A stretch of 57,180 bases of DNA from a virus: positions 1 through 57,180 of the IMG/VR virus record IMGVR_UViG_3300034198_017991, one strand, 5' to 3'. A model generated the notes under the pieces. It was not told the DNA's origin. It made no database searches and saw only the letters and a list, made by a program, of their open reading frames with translations. Positions 29,500 through 49,043 of the stretch are shown piece by piece. Made by a program: the position numbers and the translations under genes. Positions within the stretch are counted from its first letter, which is position 1, and every line of letters starts with the position of its first letter.

Positions 29500-29527
29500 A
29501 TTGTCCGTAGCGTCAAGGCATCCCGCC

Positions 29528-32500
29528 ATGGCTCTACCTCCATTCAAAGACATCCTCGCGCATCCGGAATACCAGTCGGCCGACATCGCTCGGAAGCGAG
29601 TGATCAGTGACACCTACTGGAACAACTACGACGTTGAAAAGCCCGGCGACGAATGGGCTCAGCAGCAGCGCACTCTGACCAACTCGATTCTCGACACGAA
29701 GGAAGCCATGCAGGACGCGGCTCCTGTGGCTCAGCGATTCCTCCAAGGGAAACTCAATAGCCTCAGCCGTGAGTTCCAGCTCAGTAGTGCCGATGGCTAC
29801 GGACTTATCAAAGATCCTACTGAAAGAGAAGCTGCCGTAAAAAGCCTTCAAGAGCAGACTGCCGCTGAGCAGGAGAAGCTCATGAAGACATCTTCCCTTT
29901 TTGACAAAGAAGTATCTAAGCAGATGGAACCTGCTTGGAAGGCCCTTCAAGACTCAGCACTCAACAGCGGATACTTTGGCGACCAAACTTTGCGTGGACC
30001 TGAAGGAGAACTTCTGAATGCCAGCGGAGTCGAGAAGAGCCGTGCCAATTACATCCGCTATCGCGATCAACTTGCCGGTGACTTCAACCTTGAGCCGGAA
30101 GAAGTCGACGATCTGGTGAAGCATCGCCTCGGCCTTCAGAAGGAGGCTGTCAGCCGCGACGCCTTCGGAGCGATCCACGTCAAAGATGAAGTCCTGTCCG
30201 GCGGCATCGACAAGCTCCAACGTGCCATTGTGGACTCGAATCTTCCGACTTCGGTCAAGAACACCCTGGCTGAAGAAGTCCCGCAGCGGCTCTCGGTCTT
30301 CCAGGAGCGGATCGTGAACAACGTCCGCGATAATCATCCGGAACTCGCCAGCGAGATCAAGTGGACCGGCAAAGTGGATGAGGACTACAAGGCGGTCACG
30401 GACAAGCTGAACACGGACTGGAAGCAGCAGTTCGGCGGTGGTGTGGCTGCTTCGTATCTCGATAGAGCAGCAAGTCTCGCTGGTCGTCAGTTCACAGAGC
30501 CGGGAGAGCTTCCTCCTGGAGACCCGATAGATCCGACCACACTCAAGGCGGGCCAGCGGGAGCTTGCCAACCGCCAGCAATCTATCAACCAGCTCTCGGA
30601 CTACATCAACTCCGAGAAGACCCGCATCCTTGGCGGCGTCGATGCTGCCGTTGTCGGTGCCGGTGCATTCAGCGTCGCGGAGAGTGCCCTGATCGGTGCT
30701 GCTACCGGCGGCCTCGGCAACGCCCTTGTCCCCGCAAGCCGGATCGCCGCTGCCGGTCCTGTGGGCAAGGCTGCTCTCAAGTTCGCCCAGGGCGCTGCCA
30801 ACGTCGCTCCTGTGGCGGCCTACGGTGCTGCCGGTCAGTCCATCGACACCTACGAGTCCGCCAGGAAGGCGGGTAAATCTGAAAGTGAATCATTGGCGCT
30901 TGCCGCAATCGGAGGCGCTTCCGAATTTTTCATCACGTCGCTGTCCAGCGGTCTCGGTTTCGGTGGTGTGGAAGATTTCACCAGCCGCCTCGGAACGGAA
31001 GCTGCCCGCAAGTCCCTCGCCGGATCGCTCGCCCGCGCCAGCATGGCTTTCGGAGTCAACGTCGCCGGCGAAAGTGCCGAAGAAGTGTCCATCGCGGCTC
31101 TCAATGGCTTGCTTGTGGAGTCCAAGCTGAATCCCAAAATGACTCAGGAAGACTTCAAGAAGTCCCTGATGGATACCCTCAAAACCACAGCCCTGGTGTC
31201 AGCTCCCTTCGGCGCTGTTGAAGCTGCCGACAAATTCTCATTCAAGCCCACAGACCAACAAACCGATGATGAACTCCACGAACGAGCCGACGAACTCTAC
31301 AAGGCTGCCGCCCAAGAAAGCGTTCCTGCGCCAGAAGCTGCGGGAAGGACTTTCCCGGAAGCAGGCCCTGTCACAGTGGCTCAGCTTGAGCAAGAGCGGG
31401 CCGTCCAGGCAGATCTGATCGAGGACCCGGAAGAGAAAGCCGCGCTGTTGGAAGCCAGCCCACAGGATCTGGCGAAAGAGTGGGGCGTGGATCTTGTTGT
31501 GGATGAACCGGCCCAAAATGCAGAACAAAGCGCGTTGTCTGACACAGGTGTGCAAGAAGCTCCTGCTGCTCCTGCGGCTTCCGGTAAGGCGCAGGACTCC
31601 GCATTCACGAAGCTCCGAAAAGCCATCGGGGCAAATACCAAGCTCCAGGGCGATGTGTTCGGAGATAAGATCGGCTTCTCTACCAAAGAGACTGGAGAAG
31701 AAGCTGGGGTTGAGATGACTCTTGTCCCCGATGAAGATGACCCTAACAGGGCTACTCTTGATGCCATCATAACGCCTCAAGCTGAGCGTCGTAAAGGAGC
31801 AGCAACCAAGGCACTCCAGAAGCTCACCAGCGAGGCAGACTCGCTGGCGATTACTCTGGACCTGGACGTTCGCCCAGATCAAGTCGTGCCCAAGGGCGAG
31901 GCCGCCCCGATGACAGCGGATCAGCTCAAGGACTGGTATCGCCGATTCGGATTTCGATTTGAGGAAGGCTCAAACCGTGGCGTTAGGTTTTCCGAACCTG
32001 ACCTTCAGAAGGCGTGGGGAGAGACCCTACCTCCCTACACTGGAGATCTGAACTCTCTTCCTGAAGATAGGAATTTCTCCGACAACCAGACTATCCGGGA
32101 TATGTTTGAAGAGGACCCGTCCCGCTTCGAGGAAGGTCAAACTTATTTCGCCGAGTCAGTGTTCACCGTGCAGGGCGGTAAGCTCAAACGTCACCGTGGT
32201 GTTGCGGCTGATTACAGCTACAATACCAAGAAATTCAGCCTGAGGAAGGTGGAAGACTTGGTTCCGGAACCTCCGTCAAAGGTGTATCACGCGGGACCTG
32301 CAAAGCTTTCCGCCGACAGTGTTCAGTTCGATAAAGGGGCCATCGGATTCCACACAGGAAATCGCGATCAGGCTGACTATGTGGCGTCTGGCAAGACTGG
32401 TAAGAAAAACGGCGTTGTGTCCGAACTCTCGTTGCAGGACAGATCCGATGGTGGACAGCTACAAACGGAGTCTGTCACTACCGACATGCCGTGGGAGCAG

Positions 32501-35500
32501 CCGGACGCTTTGCTGGCAGAGCTGGTGCATCAGGGACTTATCAATCAAGATGAGGCTATCACCATGGTTGGAATGTGGGACATCTCTGATGACCACAAGA
32601 ATGCTGCGATGGAAGCTATTGAGAAGGCAGCTCGTATGTCCGGTAACCCGGATTTTGCGACAGTTGATGAGACCATCGGAGAGTTCTACACTAACCCAGA
32701 CACCTACCGCAATCGCGAGAAGCTTAGTCAAGTCCGCGAGCTTCTAGTTGAAAGCGGTATCGGGGCCATCCGCTATCCAAACGATGTCGAAGGGACTGAG
32801 CCCGGCGAATCTACTGCCGTTCTCGATAAGAGAATGTTCTCCAGAATACAACCCCAACAAACCAATGAAAACCAAGTCCAAGAAACAAGTCGGCCTGCTC
32901 CTGTCAAAGGTCAGCCCGCTCAGCCAGCAACAGCAAGCAAAGCTCCGGAGGGAGCTGCACAGCGGCAAGGTCAAGGTGAGGAAGACCGCGTCTCCGAAGC
33001 GGAAAAGCTGATCCTCGATCTGTTAGGTATCCAGGCGGTGGAGCCCGGTAAAACCGCTCCCATCGTCGAGCCTAACGGTCAGATGAGGTTGTTTCAGCGC
33101 GGTGCCAGGGCTGCCGACACCGCTCGCTTCATCGAACTCACTGAAGACCTGTATCGGGACAGCGACGAAGCCACCGCAGAACAGATCGCCGCATGGCGCG
33201 AGGCCAACCCCGGCAAGTGGGAGGAGCTGTCGGCGATGCGGGAGAAGGCGTTGCGGGAGGCGGGGTATGGGGTAGGCCCGGTGTTCCATGGGACAAAAGG
33301 TAAACGAAGAGAAGCGTTCCCGTTCGTGGTATTTGATACAGAAAGGCGTGGAAAGAACACGCTTGAATCCAATCACCCCGCTGGAAGCTATTTTGCAGAG
33401 GATCGTAGATACGCGGAAGGTGCGGCATACTCTCAAACCAATATGGGCCGAAACGGTAAGCCCGTTGTTGGTGTGTTCTTTCTACGAAATGACGTTCAGA
33501 GAACTCCGGGTGTTGAATCCGCTGTCGAGTATGTCGCCTTCGACCCCGCCCAGATCAAATCCGCCGACCCGATCTCACCGGGACCGCGTATCCTTCCCGA
33601 CGAGTGGGCGGACGCTGGCTCTCCCAGTATCCTCTACCAAGACATCAAAGGCTCCTTCCAAGCAGCTCGCGACTTGTCCAAAGCGACAGTCTCCTATTTC
33701 GAATCTGCGGATGCGAGCACTGCTGTCCACGAACTCGGAGGGCACCTTGCCAGATACTTCCTCCTCAACAAAGACATCCCGCAGGAGAACCGTGCTGGGA
33801 TCACTGATGAGGACATTGCCACTGTCACGGAATGGGCCACCGGCGGAACCAGCCGTTGGGACAAGGACGCTGAAGAGAAGTGGGCACGCGGATTCGAAAG
33901 GTTCATCCTGGAAGGAGTGACCACCGGTGTTGAGGCTGTGGACCGTGCCATCCAAAAGCTCGCCAACTGGCTCATGGACGTCTACAAGTCCATCACCGCT
34001 TCTGACATCAACATTGAGATCACTCCCGAAGTCCGCGCTGTCATGCAGAAGCTCGTGACCCGGGGTGAGAGACTCCGTGCCGCCGGTCAACAAGCCACAC
34101 CGGTCGCCGTCGAAGTCCGCCGTAAGGAACCGGCCAAGCCTGCTGCCAAGAAGCCAATCCCGAAAAGGCGGCCGACCGCCAACCCAACTGACTTCGGTCT
34201 TCGGAAGGTCATCAACGACGCGATCCGCAGGGAATACGGGATGCCGAAGTCCGGGCTGAAGATCAAGGTCACCGACCAAGAAGCATGGGACGAAGCCCTC
34301 CTCCGTGTGGCAAACAACGCCGCCTTTGAGAAGCTCGATCCCGATCAGCGCAGAGCCGCTCCCAAACCCCCTCTTGTGGGAGCTGCCTTGGTCAAGGACC
34401 TGATCGACAACCCACGGCAGATGGACAAATACGAAGCTGCCCTGCTGGCCCACGAAGGCCTGGTGCGGGAGAGGGCCATCGAGAATGCCAGGATCGACGC
34501 TGAGAAGCTTCCTGACACCGCCACGGCCGTTGACCGCATCGCGGCGGCTGACGCCGCTGACAAGGCCACAGCCGCGTTCGCCGAGCTGCTCGATGTGGTC
34601 CGTCGCCAGGGATCTCTCGCCGGTCTGGCCCTTCAGGCCATGAAGCTCGTGGCCAGCCGGTCGTTCACCCTCTCCAAGATGATGGCTGACGCCTACATCG
34701 CCAGGAACGCCGGTCTCGATGAGAAGCGCCCTCTCAACGAGAAAGAGAAGAAGCTTGTTGAAGATCTTAACGCAGAGATCCAGAAGAATACTGATCTGGT
34801 AGCTAAGCTCGAAGCTGAGCTTGAAGAGAACCGTGTCCTTTACGAAGAGAAAGCTCTGCTGGAAAGGATCATCGCAGACCTTGAGAAGTCCAAGGCCGCT
34901 GCTCCGAAGCCCCGCGCCAAGCGTGAGGTCTCTCGTGAACGTGTGCAGATGGCTCGTGCGGTGCTGGATCGCTTCCGGACGTTGGCTCAGATGGGTCGGA
35001 AAGTAGATAAATCAAAGCAGCCTGAAGTCACCATTTCGGTAGGTGGCGGATCTCCGGTAAAAGTCTTCCTGTCTAAGAACACGATACCGGGAGAGAAGCC
35101 ATACAGAGCTACGTGGTTCAAGGATAACGGAGACCCTGCCGGTCATACTGACCTGTCTCAGGGAGAATACACACGCGCTCTTAGGGGAGATACTGTAAGT
35201 GTTGCAGATGGTGCATTCTCAGCCACCATAAAGACAAGCGACAGTAGAAACCCACTGGAGGACCACCCGGATCTCGGACCTTCAATCGGCTCCGGAATCA
35301 GGGACGGGTCGCTAGAGAGTCGTGTCCTGCACCACTCTCAGATGATGCAGCGTCGCTACCCTGAAATCTACGCAACTATCCAAACTTCGCTACCCAAGAA
35401 CTTGAAGCCTATCTCCAAGTATTCTACGGGTATTAGGACTTCTGTGTATGAACACATCGGGGATCTTGCACATAGGGCTGGATCGTCCGAAGTAATGGTG

Positions 35501-38500
35501 ATGGAAAATAAAATTAGAAGCCATGCTTTAAGATATGGTAATGCCTTAAACAGCAGACTCGAAGAAGAGTTAGATGGTCAAGCCGGTAGTATCGCGGCTT
35601 TCCATGTTTCATTGCGAAACAGAAAAATCGAAGATAGCTATGATACCCGTAAAGCTGTAAACAGCGATGAATACCAAGAAGAGTATCGCAAAGCAAAAAA
35701 ATACAATAAGCTACTCGATGCAACTTACGCTGCCATTTATTCTAGGCTGCAATCCTTTACCCCTCTCCAGGCGGCTGGTCGTAATATGGCTATCGCTTTT
35801 GGTATGCAGAGATATGCTTTATACCACAACCTCGCCGATAAGGTCATCGAGTTCTTCAAAGCTGCTGAAAAAGCTGGTATTAAGTCCGAGGACCTATACA
35901 AAATGGATTTTGATTTGGACGGCGTCAACAATCTTTCTCGGACCAACAACGAACTCAGCCAACAGTGGGAAACAAACAAAAAGCTGATCGAGTCCCACCT
36001 GTCTAACGAAGCGTTGTCCACCCTGCCTGAACGGGCGCAGGACCAACTCCGCGATCAAATCCCACACTCCGACCTTGCGGCCCCTATCGCGATGTTGGAT
36101 GCGTTAATCGCGCAGATTAAGGGCGAGTCTCCCAGTATCCTCTACCAAACCGAAAGCCTTAGCCCACAGGAGCTGGACGCATTCGCTGTGGTCGGTTCCG
36201 AATACATCGCCAACGGTGCCACCACATTGGAAGAGTTCACGGACGCGCTGGTGAAGGAGTTCCCTGGCGCTGCTCCCTACGCGCAGCAGATCTACAACGC
36301 AGCCCAGAAGACCGGTAAGACGCGCTCGCCAGCGGAGATCGTCCGCATGTTGGAGCCGGGTCAGCCGCTCAACAACAGGGCTGTTTACAACATGGTCCGT
36401 GGATACCTCGCTCTCGGGGTCAAGCCTGAAGACGTCATCGACCGCGTCACTGAAGAACTCCAAGACAAGTTCCCGGGCATTACTCGGGATGAAGTTGTGG
36501 TCGAGTTCACCGGCTACGGTAAAGTAAAATACCCTTCCCAGGAAGAGCTGGCCAAAGCTGTTAGAGAGCTGCGTGACACGGAGCGCATCCAGGCCCAGAT
36601 CAAAGACGCCCAGGCCGGTCGCCCGCCGAAGAAGACAGGTCTTCAGCGCGATCAGCCCACGCTGAAGATTCGAAACCTGACGAGAAATCTCGGTGACGCC
36701 CTCCGCAAATCGGGCATCAAGCACACGCGAAAAAGGGACCAGATGCGCGGGTCGCTAGACGCAATCGAAACACGACTCAATAATGAGATCGAGGAGCTGG
36801 ATGAAGCAATTAAGAAAAAGAAAAGAATCTCCCGTGTTAGAAATAAGACGGAATATACCCCAGAGATTCTAGCACTCATCGAAAAGCGTAATGAGCTGAA
36901 GGACAAGTATAACGCTATCTTCGGCATCGACAAGCGCACTCTAACAGAAGAGCAGCGTGTCAAAGCAGCTATCTCTTCACTGGATCGGATGATTCGTGAG
37001 GAAGAGGACATGCTCAAAAAAGGCATTCTCGAAAAGCAGAAGGCCAAGATCAAACTCCCCTACTCGAAAGAGATCGAGGCTCGTCAGAAGCGCCTGGCTG
37101 AACTCCGCGCCAACCGGCTCAAGGCACGCGAGGCCCTGTATCCGAAGAAGACTGCTGAGGAGCGATCCATCGAACGTCTCAAGCAGTCCACGCAGAAGTC
37201 CATCGACCGGATGGAATACTTCATCAAAAACGGTAAGTTCCCGCCACAGCCCGATGGCACCGTCTACCCGCGAGAGCTGTTCCCGGTCGAGCTTCTGAAG
37301 CTCAAGGCCGACATGGCTGTGGCTGTGGACTTCTTGAAGAAGGACTTCGCTCCACGCGCCCCGCTGGAAGAGCGCAAACACAAGGCCGCCATCGCTCAAC
37401 TGGAATCCACGATGAAGGATCTCCAGCGTCGTATCGACTCGAAGGACTTCTCGCCGAAAGAGACGGCTTCGACTCAGAACGCCCGTGTCGACGGCATGCG
37501 CGAGACAGTCAAGATCATGCGCCAGGTCCTCTCGAAGCTGGAGATCGAGGTCGCCGGTTACGACGTGAAACGTGTGGACGCCCTCGTCAAGGCCAGCGAA
37601 AAGCGCAGGGCGGAATACGAGCGTCGCATCCGCGAGGGTGACTTTGTGGACCCTCCCAAGCCGGACCCGATCACCCACGCACGCCTGGAACGTGCCCAGT
37701 TCGAAGAGGCCAAGGCCAAACTCAAGTTCCAGAAGCTTCGTGCTCAGTGGCGTGTCGAGAACCTTCAGGGATGGGACTGGCTCAAGCACCGCATCAAGCA
37801 GGCCCTCTACTTCCGCAACCAATACGCCCTGCTCGGTGACGCCGGTGCGATCCTTCGTGCGAACGGCATCTTCACCATGAACAGTCTCTTGGACTGGTCG
37901 CCCACACTCAAAGGCCAGCGGGCGCTTGCCAGGGTGTTTTGGAGGGCCGTGACTGCGCTGAATGAAGAGAATGAGTTTGCCGCATACAAAAAGATCGTCG
38001 AAAGGCCTTACGCTATATACGACAGCGTTAAGATCAAAGATAGGAAGATCGAGATGAAGTATCTCGCTCCGGACGAGGAAGGGTTCAAGAACAACGAAGA
38101 CATGCTGGACCCTGAGCTACTCAACAAACTTGCTGAAGTGAAGTTCGGTAAGGGCCTGGTAGCTCTACCAGCAAAGCTGCTCCTTAAAGTGGAACGGTTC
38201 AACCGAGTGTTCTCCAACCTCGCCCGCGCTGAAATGCTGGACAACCTCATTGACGCGAACGGAGGCTCAGCCACACCAGATCAGGCCGCCTTGTTCATCA
38301 ACGCTGCTATGATGATGGGCGGTCGCGGATTCTCGACGAATCAGAAGAGAGATGCCTTATTTGCCGGTGCCAACCAGATACTCATCTCGTCCCGTTGGTA
38401 TTACAGCCGAATCGCAGTTGCCGTCGGGCAGCCGGTTCTAACAACCCGGGCAAACTACAAAGGCACTTTCAAAGCCAGGGCCATTGTTCTCTATCAGCTA

Positions 38501-39070
38501 TACGGTAAAAGCCTTCAGCGATCCATTACTCTGGCTGCTCTTGCAACCGCTATGGGTATGAAGCGCGACGGCGAAGATGAAGAAGGTCTCGAACTTGATC
38601 CGACTGCTGAAGACTGGATGAAGTTCTATTTCAGGGTATCTAACGGGACCATGTTCACGTTGGACTTCAGTGGAGGCATGTCACCGTTTGTCAACTTCAT
38701 AGCGAGAGCCTACTACAAAAAGAAGAAAGTCAACGGACGTGTGATCGACATGGCTTCTAACAAGTTCGGAGTCAGCTCCTCACGAGACGATTTCTGGAAG
38801 CTCGTCGACAACCGACTGAAGGCCAACGCCGTCTACGTCCTGTCGATCATAGACGGTCAGTTCTTCGGAGGTAAGCCAGTGACACCGACGACTGCCGTGA
38901 CCGAGCTGTTCACCAACGCAACTGTGGGCGAAATGAACAAGATCGCTGAAGGAACCGTCGAATCGCCGGTCGACCGTGCGGTCCTGTCCGCCCTGAGCTA
39001 CGTGGGAGCTGGTGTCAAGCCGGTCCCCAAGAAGGTCGAGAAAAGTGACAACCAGGTGAAGGGGTTCTAA
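29528..39070 (+). CDS. Giant polyvalent internal virion protein (3180 aa): GNAT, two ART-like, zincin, coiled coils, C-terminal LPD-type domain
   Basis: Starts at ATG 29528 (MALPPFKDILAHPEYQ); the TTG upstream is unlikely. Order of parts: helical N-terminus; an Ala/Gly-rich hydrophobic stretch at about residues 370-440, possibly membrane-active; a GNAT-like region at about 690-820 (QAERRKGAATKALQKL, WYRRFGFRFE); an ADP-ribosyltransferase-like domain from about residue 919 (VYHAGPAKL); a second from about 1252 (VFHGTKGK, then AGSYFAEDRRYAEGAA); a zincin metallopeptidase with HELGGH at 1401-1406 and a likely third ligand in EKWARGFERF; coiled coils near 1740-1790 and 2400-2570; and a C-terminal domain of the large-polyvalent (LPD) type. 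Such polyvalent proteins are thought to be injected and to disarm the host. Confidence 0.8.
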   Translation: MALPPFKDILAHPEYQSADIARKRVISDTYWNNYDVEKPGDEWAQQQRTLTNSILDTKEAMQDAAPVAQRFLQGKLNSLSREFQLSSADGYGLIKDPTEREAAVKSLQEQTAAEQEKLMKTSSLFDKEVSKQMEPAWKALQDSALNSGYFGDQTLRGPEGELLNASGVEKSRANYIRYRDQLAGDFNLEPEEVDDLVKHRLGLQKEAVSRDAFGAIHVKDEVLSGGIDKLQRAIVDSNLPTSVKNTLAEEVPQRLSVFQERIVNNVRDNHPELASEIKWTGKVDEDYKAVTDKLNTDWKQQFGGGVAASYLDRAASLAGRQFTEPGELPPGDPIDPTTLKAGQRELANRQQSINQLSDYINSEKTRILGGVDAAVVGAGAFSVAESALIGAATGGLGNALVPASRIAAAGPVGKAALKFAQGAANVAPVAAYGAAGQSIDTYESARKAGKSESESLALAAIGGASEFFITSLSSGLGFGGVEDFTSRLGTEAARKSLAGSLARASMAFGVNVAGESAEEVSIAALNGLLVESKLNPKMTQEDFKKSLMDTLKTTALVSAPFGAVEAADKFSFKPTDQQTDDELHERADELYKAAAQESVPAPEAAGRTFPEAGPVTVAQLEQERAVQADLIEDPEEKAALLEASPQDLAKEWGVDLVVDEPAQNAEQSALSDTGVQEAPAAPAASGKAQDSAFTKLRKAIGANTKLQGDVFGDKIGFSTKETGEEAGVEMTLVPDEDDPNRATLDAIITPQAERRKGAATKALQKLTSEADSLAITLDLDVRPDQVVPKGEAAPMTADQLKDWYRRFGFRFEEGSNRGVRFSEPDLQKAWGETLPPYTGDLNSLPEDRNFSDNQTIRDMFEEDPSRFEEGQTYFAESVFTVQGGKLKRHRGVAADYSYNTKKFSLRKVEDLVPEPPSKVYHAGPAKLSADSVQFDKGAIGFHTGNRDQADYVASGKTGKKNGVVSELSLQDRSDGGQLQTESVTTDMPWEQPDALLAELVHQGLINQDEAITMVGMWDISDDHKNAAMEAIEKAARMSGNPDFATVDETIGEFYTNPDTYRNREKLSQVRELLVESGIGAIRYPNDVEGTEPGESTAVLDKRMFSRIQPQQTNENQVQETSRPAPVKGQPAQPATASKAPEGAAQRQGQGEEDRVSEAEKLILDLLGIQAVEPGKTAPIVEPNGQMRLFQRGARAADTARFIELTEDLYRDSDEATAEQIAAWREANPGKWEELSAMREKALREAGYGVGPVFHGTKGKRREAFPFVVFDTERRGKNTLESNHPAGSYFAEDRRYAEGAAYSQTNMGRNGKPVVGVFFLRNDVQRTPGVESAVEYVAFDPAQIKSADPISPGPRILPDEWADAGSPSILYQDIKGSFQAARDLSKATVSYFESADASTAVHELGGHLARYFLLNKDIPQENRAGITDEDIATVTEWATGGTSRWDKDAEEKWARGFERFILEGVTTGVEAVDRAIQKLANWLMDVYKSITASDINIEITPEVRAVMQKLVTRGERLRAAGQQATPVAVEVRRKEPAKPAAKKPIPKRRPTANPTDFGLRKVINDAIRREYGMPKSGLKIKVTDQEAWDEALLRVANNAAFEKLDPDQRRAAPKPPLVGAALVKDLIDNPRQMDKYEAALLAHEGLVRERAIENARIDAEKLPDTATAVDRIAAADAADKATAAFAELLDVVRRQGSLAGLALQAMKLVASRSFTLSKMMADAYIARNAGLDEKRPLNEKEKKLVEDLNAEIQKNTDLVAKLEAELEENRVLYEEKALLERIIADLEKSKAAAPKPRAKREVSRERVQMARAVLDRFRTLAQMGRKVDKSKQPEVTISVGGGSPVKVFLSKNTIPGEKPYRATWFKDNGDPAGHTDLSQGEYTRALRGDTVSVADGAFSATIKTSDSRNPLEDHPDLGPSIGSGIRDGSLESRVLHHSQMMQRRYPEIYATIQTSLPKNLKPISKYSTGIRTSVYEHIGDLAHRAGSSEVMVMENKIRSHALRYGNALNSRLEEELDGQAGSIAAFHVSLRNRKIEDSYDTRKAVNSDEYQEEYRKAKKYNKLLDATYAAIYSRLQSFTPLQAAGRNMAIAFGMQRYALYHNLADKVIEFFKAAEKAGIKSEDLYKMDFDLDGVNNLSRTNNELSQQWETNKKLIESHLSNEALSTLPERAQDQLRDQIPHSDLAAPIAMLDALIAQIKGESPSILYQTESLSPQELDAFAVVGSEYIANGATTLEEFTDALVKEFPGAAPYAQQIYNAAQKTGKTRSPAEIVRMLEPGQPLNNRAVYNMVRGYLALGVKPEDVIDRVTEELQDKFPGITRDEVVVEFTGYGKVKYPSQEELAKAVRELRDTERIQAQIKDAQAGRPPKKTGLQRDQPTLKIRNLTRNLGDALRKSGIKHTRKRDQMRGSLDAIETRLNNEIEELDEAIKKKKRISRVRNKTEYTPEILALIEKRNELKDKYNAIFGIDKRTLTEEQRVKAAISSLDRMIREEEDMLKKGILEKQKAKIKLPYSKEIEARQKRLAELRANRLKAREALYPKKTAEERSIERLKQSTQKSIDRMEYFIKNGKFPPQPDGTVYPRELFPVELLKLKADMAVAVDFLKKDFAPRAPLEERKHKAAIAQLESTMKDLQRRIDSKDFSPKETASTQNARVDGMRETVKIMRQVLSKLEIEVAGYDVKRVDALVKASEKRRAEYERRIREGDFVDPPKPDPITHARLERAQFEEAKAKLKFQKLRAQWRVENLQGWDWLKHRIKQALYFRNQYALLGDAGAILRANGIFTMNSLLDWSPTLKGQRALARVFWRAVTALNEENEFAAYKKIVERPYAIYDSVKIKDRKIEMKYLAPDEEGFKNNEDMLDPELLNKLAEVKFGKGLVALPAKLLLKVERFNRVFSNLARAEMLDNLIDANGGSATPDQAALFINAAMMMGGRGFSTNQKRDALFAGANQILISSRWYYSRIAVAVGQPVLTTRANYKGTFKARAIVLYQLYGKSLQRSITLAALATAMGMKRDGEDEEGLELDPTAEDWMKFYFRVSNGTMFTLDFSGGMSPFVNFIARAYYKKKKVNGRVIDMASNKFGVSSSRDDFWKLVDNRLKANAVYVLSIIDGQFFGGKPVTPTTAVTELFTNATVGEMNKIAEGTVESPVDRAVLSALSYVGAGVKPVPKKVEKSDNQVKGF

Positions 39071-46738: not shown

Positions 46739-47155
46739 TTAGAACTTCTTCCCACCTTCAGCGGCACGATTCTCGGGACGATGGTCTTCACGAGTCGCGT
46801 TGTATGCGAGCTTCTCGGCAAATGCTCCGCCGAGATCCAGGCCGAGTGCACCTCCGAGGTCAAGAATGCGGATCATGGCGTCCGCCAGCTCAACCTCGAC
46901 CATTGGCCGATTCGGGAGATGATCATCCATAACTCCTTTCCGCTCCCCTTCAAGAGCTTCCGAAACTTCGGAATGGATCAGAGCGAGTTTTCCTGCGACA
47001 AGGTGCGGTGCCCACCGGCCAGCAGCTTCAAGTAGTGGCAGGCCGGTCTCCCGATCAGTCCACCAGCCGGACTCTTTGGCCAGATTGTGGCAAAGGTCTC
47101 TGAGGATATTGACGCGCTCAGCGGTGATTTTCTGGAATGGATCAGTATGGATCAT
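46739..47155 (-). CDS. MazG-like nucleotide pyrophosphohydrolase (138 aa)
   Basis: Contains the MazG helices: LALIHSEVSEALEGERKG (ExxE metal-binding helix), then PMVEVELADAMIRILDLGG (ELADAM, second metal-binding ExxD helix). Such enzymes hydrolyse NTPs or alarmone nucleotides; in phages they are thought to reset nucleotide pools or (p)ppGpp levels. Start ATG 47155 overlaps the VRR-NUC stop (ATGA). The stop TAA lies inside an octamer (CTGTTAGA on the plus strand at 46736). Confidence 0.75.
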   Translation of the reverse strand: MIHTDPFQKITAERVNILRDLCHNLAKESGWWTDRETGLPLLEAAGRWAPHLVAGKLALIHSEVSEALEGERKGVMDDHLPNRPMVEVELADAMIRILDLGGALGLDLGGAFAEKLAYNATREDHRPENRAAEGGKKF

Positions 47156-47553
47156 TGTTCTTCGATGTAGTATGTTAATGTATTGCAAAAGGTTTCAAAG
47201 TCATTGATGACCACACATAGGTATCCCTGCTTGGAGAGAGCTGTCATCATCTTTTTCTGATCTTCCGACGGGGAGTTACCAGCCTTCTTCAGCTCGCAGT
47301 AGAACCCGTGATACTCGGCTTTTGGCAGGGCCAGGGTGATGTCGGGTATTCCGGCGCGGAATCCCATGAGCTTCAGTTTCGCCCTGTATTGCGGCTTCCT
47401 GATACCTTCCGACGGCGTGTGCCAGAACAGCTCCTGATCGAGGTTGTTCTTCTTGAGAAGCTTTTTGAGGAACTCGGCGCAGTCCTTCTGAAGGCTGTCT
47501 TCGCTATCCTGCCAAGCTTCCTTGGCTGGCTTCCTGAGGTCGTGATAGTTCAT
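47152..47553 (-). CDS. VRR-NUC domain nuclease (133 aa)
   Basis: A small PD-(D/E)XK nuclease: GFRAGIPDITL (D71), then GFYCELKK (E87 and K89), then SEDQKKMMTALSKQGYLCVV, the typical Q.....L...G y/v.v closing. VRR-NUC domains act as structure-specific or junction-resolving nucleases in phage recombination and genome processing. About 130 residues is the usual stand-alone size. The last gene before the tmRNA gap in transcription order from the right. Confidence 0.85.
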   Translation of the reverse strand: MNYHDLRKPAKEAWQDSEDSLQKDCAEFLKKLLKKNNLDQELFWHTPSEGIRKPQYRAKLKLMGFRAGIPDITLALPKAEYHGFYCELKKAGNSPSEDQKKMMTALSKQGYLCVVINDFETFCNTLTYYIEEQ

Positions 47554-47702: not shown

Positions 47703-48057
47703 TGGACCTGGGGGGAGTCGAACCCCCGTCCTGGACCAGCGCGTCGTCAGTATTTACAAGCATATCCCGTTGCGAACGGGCAACCAGGGCGAACCGGAGT
47801 TCGCCTCCACCACCTGCATTTGATGGATGCAGGAAACCCTTTGCTCCGATTGTTTCCCGCAGGGTGACGGAGCGTTCCTGCGGGCGTGGATGCTTCAGGC
47901 AACAAGCGCCAGGTCGCTTTGGGCGACGGAGCGGCGGTTGCGGAAGCTGACGGTGTTATCGCCATTTGAATGCGTGATCGGCTTTTTACCGGGCCAACCG
48001 ATCAACCCGTGCTTGACTCTGACGGGTTGCTGATCCAGTCGAAACCAGAACAGGCCC
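47703..48057 (-). ncRNA. ssrA: tmRNA (ssrA), phage-encoded
   Basis: The 5' end GGGCCTG (from 48057) pairs with the 3' end CAGGTCC before A at 47703, giving a 7-bp acceptor stem with a G-U wobble at the third pair, the AlaRS identity element. The 5' part has TGTTCTGGTTTCGACTGGATC, the tmRNA D-loop-like hallmark, and the 3' part has GGGGGTTCGACTCCCCC, a classic T-arm. Total 355 nt, usual for tmRNA. CCA is not encoded. The tag frame runs to TGA at 47897-47895; read back it begins NGDNTVSFRN if the resume codon is 47966-47964 and ends SDLALVA, 23 codons. Releases stalled ribosomes and tags peptides. The resume codon is inferred. Confidence 0.9.
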
Positions 48058-48176: not shown

Positions 48177-48182
48177 ATTATA
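48177..48182 (-). promoter_or_regulatory. -10 box (TATAAT) of a tmRNA promoter
   Basis: On the minus strand the sequence reads TATAAT, a perfect -10 box. The -35 at a 17-base spacing is only TAGTGT. Start would fall about at 48170, leaving a leader of about 113 bases that RNase P or another nuclease must remove to give the mature 5' end at 48057. Confidence 0.5.
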
Positions 48183-48199
48183 CTAACCCGTTTTGAACC

Positions 48200-48352
48200 A
48201 CACTACCCAGCACGAACGCTGGCCAGTCTCTGCATGATCCCGTATGGGTGCCCGTGCTGGGGAGTGTAGTCTCGGTCTTTCCCGAGTGTCATGTGATCTA
48301 GGCGCGGTCACGGTCGCTTATCCTCAGTTTGAACCAGACCCTACAACTGAGA
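48200..48352. other. Chain of stable hairpins in the intergenic region next to tmRNA
   Basis: 48058-48470 holds no gene but several stems. ACACTACCCAGCACG (48200-48214) pairs with CGTGCTGGGGAGTGT (48253-48267) with one mismatch in 15. Inside it CCC/GGG pairs form a smaller stem. Then CTCGG/CCGAG (48271-48286), CTCAGTT/AACTGAG (about 48325-48351), and GCCCCG/CGGGGC near 48440-48460 follow. It looks like a structured RNA or a regulatory DNA site; no family recognised. Confidence 0.5.
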
Positions 48353-48470
48353 CTTCTTGTCATCACAATCTGCACCTGTTTTGTCAGGAGGTAGTCAGCT
48401 TCTCCCACAGGCTCACTGCGGAGGCTGGAGTGTAGTGCCCCGTATCGCCGGGGCCACGCGGTTGTTTTAC

Positions 48471-49043
48471 TTACTTCTTGCCCCAGGGCTTCTTACCGGC
48501 GGGCTTGGCTGGAGCGGGCGGAGGAGTGTCCTCCTCTTCGGCTTCCTCCTCTTCCTCCTCTTCGACTTCCTCCTCTTCGGAGCCGTCATCGTCGTCCTCT
48601 TCCTCGCCGTCATCGTCGTCGCCGTCGGCGTCGTCGGCGGGCTCGATGGTGGAGATGTTGACGTGCTTCTTCGAGGGGTCCTTCTTATCGGGACGCTCGA
48701 CGGCGGTGATCGTGACGGCGTTGTCGATCAGGTTCTTCAGCGTGGTCGGGGACACTTCCTTGTCCTCGCTCAGGCCTGCGGCGGTCCAGAGGGTGCCAAG
48801 CTCCTTACAGGCGATCTCGCGGCGGACGTCGTTGGGCGACATGACCGAGAAGTAGATCTTGCAGGAGTAATCGCTACCGACTTCCGTGAGGCCGGCGACG
48901 ACCTGCTTTTCGAGCCCGCGAGGATCGCTCTTCACAGGCTCCATGGCGGCCGACGTGATGGCATAGGTGTGGGTGCCGACCTTCAGGCGACGTCCGCCAT
49001 CATTGATGGAGCCGACTTTCTTGGGGATGAATTTGAATGACAT
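48471..49043 (-). CDS. Single-stranded DNA-binding-like protein with acidic tail (DUF669-like, 190 aa)
   Basis: The N-terminal 130 residues are an OB-like domain: FIPKKVGSINDGGRRLKVGT, CKIYFSVMSPNDVRREIACK. After residue 137 a long acidic tail (DDADGDDDDGEEEDDDD and more Glu) leads to a basic-aromatic end (KKPWGKK). An acidic tail behind an OB fold is the hallmark of phage SSB proteins, which cover single-stranded DNA and recruit partners. Sits beside the Sak4-like gene. The acidic tail is encoded by repetitive GAG/GAT codons. Confidence 0.7.
   Translation of the reverse strand: MSFKFIPKKVGSINDGGRRLKVGTHTYAITSAAMEPVKSDPRGLEKQVVAGLTEVGSDYSCKIYFSVMSPNDVRREIACKELGTLWTAAGLSEDKEVSPTTLKNLIDNAVTITAVERPDKKDPSKKHVNISTIEPADDADGDDDDGEEEDDDDGSEEEEVEEEEEEEAEEEDTPPPAPAKPAGKKPWGKK

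Follow-up and report, generated by a model that had tools for sequence, protein, structure and literature searches.

A phage-encoded one-piece tmRNA gene with a long predicted tag in an uncultivated phage contig

The tmRNA Gene and Its Surroundings

The stretch of DNA analysed here (the window) is a 57,180-base virus record, a linear metagenomic contig from an uncultivated phage. Its minus strand carries, from 48057 to 47703, a tmRNA (ssrA) gene of 355 nt, at the coordinates where the initial annotation had placed it. The Rfam tmRNA covariance model (RF00023), which had been proposed as a check, matched the gene with 105.3 bits (E 3.8e-40), well over the gathering score of 47, and covered model positions 1-374, that is, the full length. 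The match spans 48057-47700, and the gene proper stops at the discriminator A (47703); CCA is absent from the gene sequence, the bases after the discriminator being TAG. The fold was better than those of 100 out of 100 dinucleotide shuffles (z −4.0). ARAGORN called no tmRNA in the window at default settings or at moderately relaxed thresholds, and at looser thresholds it returned at least 28 calls scattered across the window, which makes a call under relaxed settings uninformative. An annotation relying on ARAGORN would therefore miss this gene. The features of the locus are collected in Table 1.

Table 1. Features of the tmRNA locus in window coordinates.
Feature	Position	Strand	Details
tmRNA (ssrA) gene	47703..48057	−	One-piece, G1 to discriminator A; RF00023 and covariation across eight phage tmRNAs
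Tag reading frame	47895..47963, including stop	−	Resume codon GGC, 22 codons GDNTVSFRNRRSVAQSDLALVA, stop TGA
Pseudoknot PK1	47975..48009	−	CGGG/CCCG and TGATCGG/CCGATCA; 100% of cells paired
Pseudoknot PK2	47843..47884	−	CCCGCAGG/CCTGCGGG and GCTCCG/CGGAGC; 93% and 81% of cells paired
Pseudoknot PK3	47806..47833	−	CCTGCA/TGCAGG and TCCATCA/TGGTGGA; 76% and 84% of cells paired (helices 9-10)
PK4 position	47766..47784	−	Short hairpin or minimal pseudoknot, unconserved; 46% and 60% paired (helices 13-14)
VRR-NUC nuclease gene, next downstream	47152..47553	−, same direction as tmRNA	PF08774
Next upstream gene, acidic tail	48471..49043	−, same direction as tmRNA	Homologue in G002, 44%
TATAAT, possible −10 hexamer	48177..48182	−	120 nt upstream of tmRNA; without good −35; weak

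Along the minus strand the order is a DUF7173 gene, an AAA_24 ATPase, the acidic-tailed protein, the tmRNA, and the VRR-NUC nuclease, followed by a pyrophosphatase-like gene, a Cas4-type exonuclease, a helicase, a clamp-like protein, and DNA polymerase A. The tmRNA is thus placed amid the phage replication genes and in their direction. The gene immediately upstream had no match in Pfam; its position and acidic tail suggest a product resembling an ssDNA-binding protein. No convincing promoter for the tmRNA was found upstream. The gap of 413 nt preceding the gene contains an inverted repeat (48197-48270; arms of 18 nt, 89% complementary, 38 nt apart) that would fold, on the minus strand, into a stable hairpin. 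Also upstream of the tmRNA is an element of 29 nt that includes a short hairpin (CACTACACTCCAGCCTCCGCAGTG; 48412-48440, minus strand). It is shared (28/29) with a distant phage contig, G056 (L519 1420-1448), where it is likewise upstream of the tmRNA, and it was not found in the other loci. Elsewhere in the window, an open frame of 3,189 residues (29501-39070, plus strand) showed 33% identity to G002, the nearest relative, over 1,006 aa. Neither PHROGs nor Pfam gave a match for most virion proteins, and the phage group is therefore poorly described.

Structure of the tmRNA and Reading of the Tag

The structure was drawn up manually on the basis of the window sequence, and its pairs were then counted in eight aligned phage tmRNAs. 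Rfam called all eight tmRNA, and ARAGORN called five of the seven other than the window. Overall, 87.4% of cells were paired, against 35-43% when the partners were slid by 1-3 columns, and changes on both sides occurred in 47 of the 85 pairs, against 13-18 in the slid controls; a structure derived from the window favours itself over its slid versions in the cells paired, which does not explain the both-side changes. The acceptor, the T arm, helix 2, and PK1-PK3 are supported by paired changes across the eight RNAs. The tRNA-like domain is of the alanine type, with a 7-bp acceptor bearing G3-U70 and a 5-bp T arm, and 100% of its cells are paired. The alanine-identity pair G3-U70 is G-U in all eight. 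The initial annotation had relied on the G-U third acceptor pair, a quoted 5′ sequence, and the T arm, and all of them are present.

Before the tag, helices 2-6 (helix 2, itself 85-100% paired, and PK1) have 85-100% of cells paired and show both-side changes, which in PK1 (helices 5-6) affect 7 of 11 pairs. After the tag, PK2 and PK3 (helices 7-10) are 76-93% paired, and in PK2 (helices 7-8) all eight pairs of stem 1 changed on both sides. The pairing expected of four pseudoknots held for PK1-PK3, which pair and covary, and was poor at PK4. The place of the latter is occupied in G002 and G046 by a short GNRA hairpin (GTCC-GAAA-GGAC), and in G056 by almost nothing. The initial annotation had named a lack of model score or of pseudoknots as what would speak against a tmRNA; the RF00023 score and PK1-PK3 were both found. 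Since E. coli tmRNA stays active when its pseudoknots are replaced (PMC2481249), a weak PK4 does not exclude function.

The stretch from PK3 to helix 2 (47754-47841, minus strand) also matched a second Rfam model, RF01761, over its full length, with 35 bits (below the gathering score of 42; E 4.5e-5 for 361 nt). The signal was weak or absent in the relatives (23 bits in G008 and 19 bits in G056). This model, wcaG, describes a candidate cis-regulatory RNA of cyanophage and marine origin, and it may resemble tandem tmRNA pseudoknots.

The GGC at 47963 was chosen as the resume codon because it is in the frame of the tag, lies at the right distance from PK1 (11 nt, about 12 nt being expected), and has an A at −4. 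Its context, CAAAU-GGC, keeps this A and has a C at −5; in E. coli tmRNA the corresponding A86 is essential and the change U85C is tolerated (PMC2481249). The equivalent GGC was picked by ARAGORN in G045, G051, G053, and G054, and complete tags were read by the same program in six relatives. An open frame of 72 aa (47965-47747), which runs over the tag and the pseudoknots in another frame, was discarded as a chance one: it does not close before PK2, and in the relatives the frames close in the GGC frame. Of the tag first described, with up to 23 codons and ending in SDLALVA, the unusual length and the ending are supported; the present reading gives 22 codons. Calling it longer than usual was fair, the commonest length of tmRNA tags being 10 aa (PMC11915505), and long tags occur elsewhere too. 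Tags in the phage lineage have mostly 18-30 aa (8 or 9 in G008), and those of sampled Cyanobacteriota have 14-17 aa (ANNIV type) or 19-25 aa (other members). The idea that long tags are specific to phages was dropped, as the long cyanobacterial tags indicate that length is not a phage property.

Relatives, Gene Position, and Known Systems

The ssrA gene had been described as phage-borne, in agreement with its place amid phage genes and its recurrence in two related phages with tmRNA, G002 (the nearest) and G054 (the third member of the clade). The terminase-like protein, so labelled from size and position and having no Pfam or PHROGs match, is 73% identical in G002 and 65% in G054; the primase of G002 is 57-58% identical, many virion proteins are shared by the window with both phages, and the replication module is present in G002 too (41-63% identity). 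There the tmRNA is flanked by the DUF7173 and ATPase genes, two genes off the slot of the window, and an HNH_3 endonuclease gene begins within 50 nt after it. The tmRNA of G054 is near late genes, those of G051 and G053 are within or next to a tRNA cluster, and that of G045 is beside a tRNA-Met. The clade retains the gene, oriented like its main neighbours wherever this could be seen, but in variable slots; movement of the gene and several acquisitions are both compatible with these differences. In G002 (L505 12618-13097) the HNH_3 gene is followed by CGATCCTCCCCAGCTCCACCA, which resembles a second tmRNA 3′ end with CCA and might be a trace of mobility. In G046, a type-P1 twister ribozyme scoring just below threshold (61.1 bits, against a gathering score of 67.2; L207 6817-6882, minus strand) was observed at a distance of about 2.6 kb from the tmRNA.

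In a rough tree built from whole tmRNAs, weak because support values were not looked at, the window grouped with G002, G008, G045, G046, G051, G054, and G056, and the sampled bacterial tmRNAs stood apart. The neighbouring DNA had no match in the phage collection, the terminase-like protein had none among named phages, and the primase gave none in viral contigs, although G002 carries a primase. The tags of the window and of G054 had no matches by tblastn. We considered a cyanobacterial host. The window tag is moderately like the ANNIVSF tags of cyanobacteria (ANNIVSFARKEALVAA and similar), with which it has in common NxxVSF.R and an end of the ALVA type (p 0.01), whereas the RNA body does not group with cyanobacterial tmRNAs in the weak tree. 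The resemblance of the tag is no proof of host, and the terminase-like protein was encoded in 0 of 292 Cyanobacteriota genomes, in a search without positive control; a cyanobacterial host is possible.

The tmRNAs of phages have long been catalogued (PMC4131195), and they were found in 402 of 18,146 phage genomes, about 2.3% (PMC9004378), so the statement that few phages carry their own is a fair one. Close precedents in kind are Bxz1 and the cluster C mycobacteriophages, which have a complete one-piece tmRNA and a long tag; the Bxz1-type tag, ATDTDATVTDAEIEAFFAEEAAALV, has 25 aa and does not end in LAA (annotation in PQ244016). Those are, however, mycobacterial phages of about 155 kb with large tRNA sets, their tags are unlike that of the window, and the tmRNAs can be aligned in the T-arm region only. 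The marine phage Melnitz also has an ssrA without integrase (PMC9004378), but its tmRNA is a permuted two-piece one with a glutamine riboswitch, unlike the one-piece RNA of the window. With bacterial one-piece tmRNAs (RF00023) the window shares domain order, G3-U70, helix 2, PK1-PK3, and the logic of the resume codon. It differs from them in the unconserved PK4, in C4-G69 replacing the usual G4-C69, in the longer tag, and in its low score (105 bits, against 121-231 in sampled bacteria and 106-176 in Cyanobacteriota). Phage tmRNAs were thus already known, and so were long tags not ending in LAA, in the Bxz1 relatives; the window adds a member invisible to a standard annotation tool to this small set. 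What is new is a lineage from uncultivated phages with long tags that are alike among themselves, and a tmRNA slot that differs in related phages; both need more sequences. A recurring tmRNA lineage in such phages is indicated.

Function and Fate of the Tagged Product

As judged from its sequence, the gene encodes a structurally complete tmRNA that probably works in ordinary trans-translation. Host AlaRS would charge the RNA, and during infection host SmpB would bring it to ribosomes that have stalled on broken mRNAs. The ribosome would then switch to the GGC codon, add alanine and GDNTVSFRNRRSVAQSDLALVA, and stop at TGA, and the tagged product would be degraded by host ClpXP-type proteases. 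No SmpB gene was found in the window record or in seven other viral records, so the host protein is probably the one used. Taking into account that the gene sits among replication genes, the benefit to the phage would probably be an extra capacity for ribosome rescue during replication. A benefit specific to the tag is possible.

The initial annotation had proposed that the LALVA ending might route tagged proteins to a different protease or to none. This proposal found no support. LacI tagged with AANDENYALVA had a half-life of about 13 min in E. coli, against 8 min for the ALAA tag (PMC3511798), a measurement made on an engineered E. coli tag and not on that of the window, and the sampled cyanobacterial tags end in a similar way, ALVAA or VAVA. 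Considering that -ALVA is degraded only slightly slower than -ALAA, ordinary trans-translation with host SmpB and ClpXP is the most likely reading.

The alternative that survives best also has the RNA rescuing ribosomes, with the long tag selected for a special fate. The tag might engage another adaptor or protease, or confer protection, and proteins of host or phage would then be handled unlike those tagged by host tmRNA. The tags were compared pairwise with shuffled cores, and 13 of the 91 phage pairs reached p≤0.01, where about 1 was expected; these p-values are unadjusted, the tags of G051 and G053 are near-identical, and the null model of shuffling takes no account of common descent or of the conserved ends of the tags. 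The window tag was closest to those of G051, G053, and G056 (p 0.001-0.002), and G046/G056, G002/G054, and Bxz1/G052 were also similar beyond shuffles. The motifs common to phage tags include GNN-IVSFR, GNNVIRG-F, and APSLxEAxxIL. The last one keeps 8 of 12 residues between G002 and G054, with 5 synonymous codon changes (p 0.016 in a simple simulation). Both results speak in favour of this alternative, and the shuffle test cannot separate common descent from selection. Against a special fate are also the degradation of -ALVA in E. coli and the adaptor, which was not found; we regard this alternative as rather unlikely. The broader proposal, of a phage tmRNA lineage whose extended tags are under peptide selection and do more than mark for ClpXP, and whose gene moves between slots, perhaps helped by an adjacent HNH endonuclease like the one in G002, is likewise doubtful.

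It is very improbable that the gene is a relic or an attachment-site fragment which a temperate ancestor acquired from a host ssrA. Integration at ssrA is common and such a pick-up was proposed for phage Melnitz (PMC9004378), but here the gene is full length and covarying, and the phage tmRNAs group together and not with any sampled host tmRNA in the weak tree. An integration-site tmRNA would be expected to come with an integrase and with its end directly repeated; tyrosine integrases, the families searched, had no match in the record or in four relatives, and a second copy of the tmRNA 3′ end was not found in the window. A decoy titrating host SmpB or ribosomes, as the tRNA-like-only molecule of phage DS6A can, is hardly credible. 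A DS6A-like molecule does inhibit tmRNA (PMC4131195, PMC11915505), but the RNA of the window has an intact mRNA-like domain, with resume codon, tag, and stop, and the relatives preserve these parts.

The related long tags open a direct test of what phages gain from a tmRNA of their own, extra ribosome rescue or control of the fate of tagged proteins. As for the tags of unrelated phage contigs (L234, L049, and the Bxz1-type PQ244016), we observed a common segment like TDAxIxAF/W before an end like A-LV(A), which was clearest between L234 and Bxz1.
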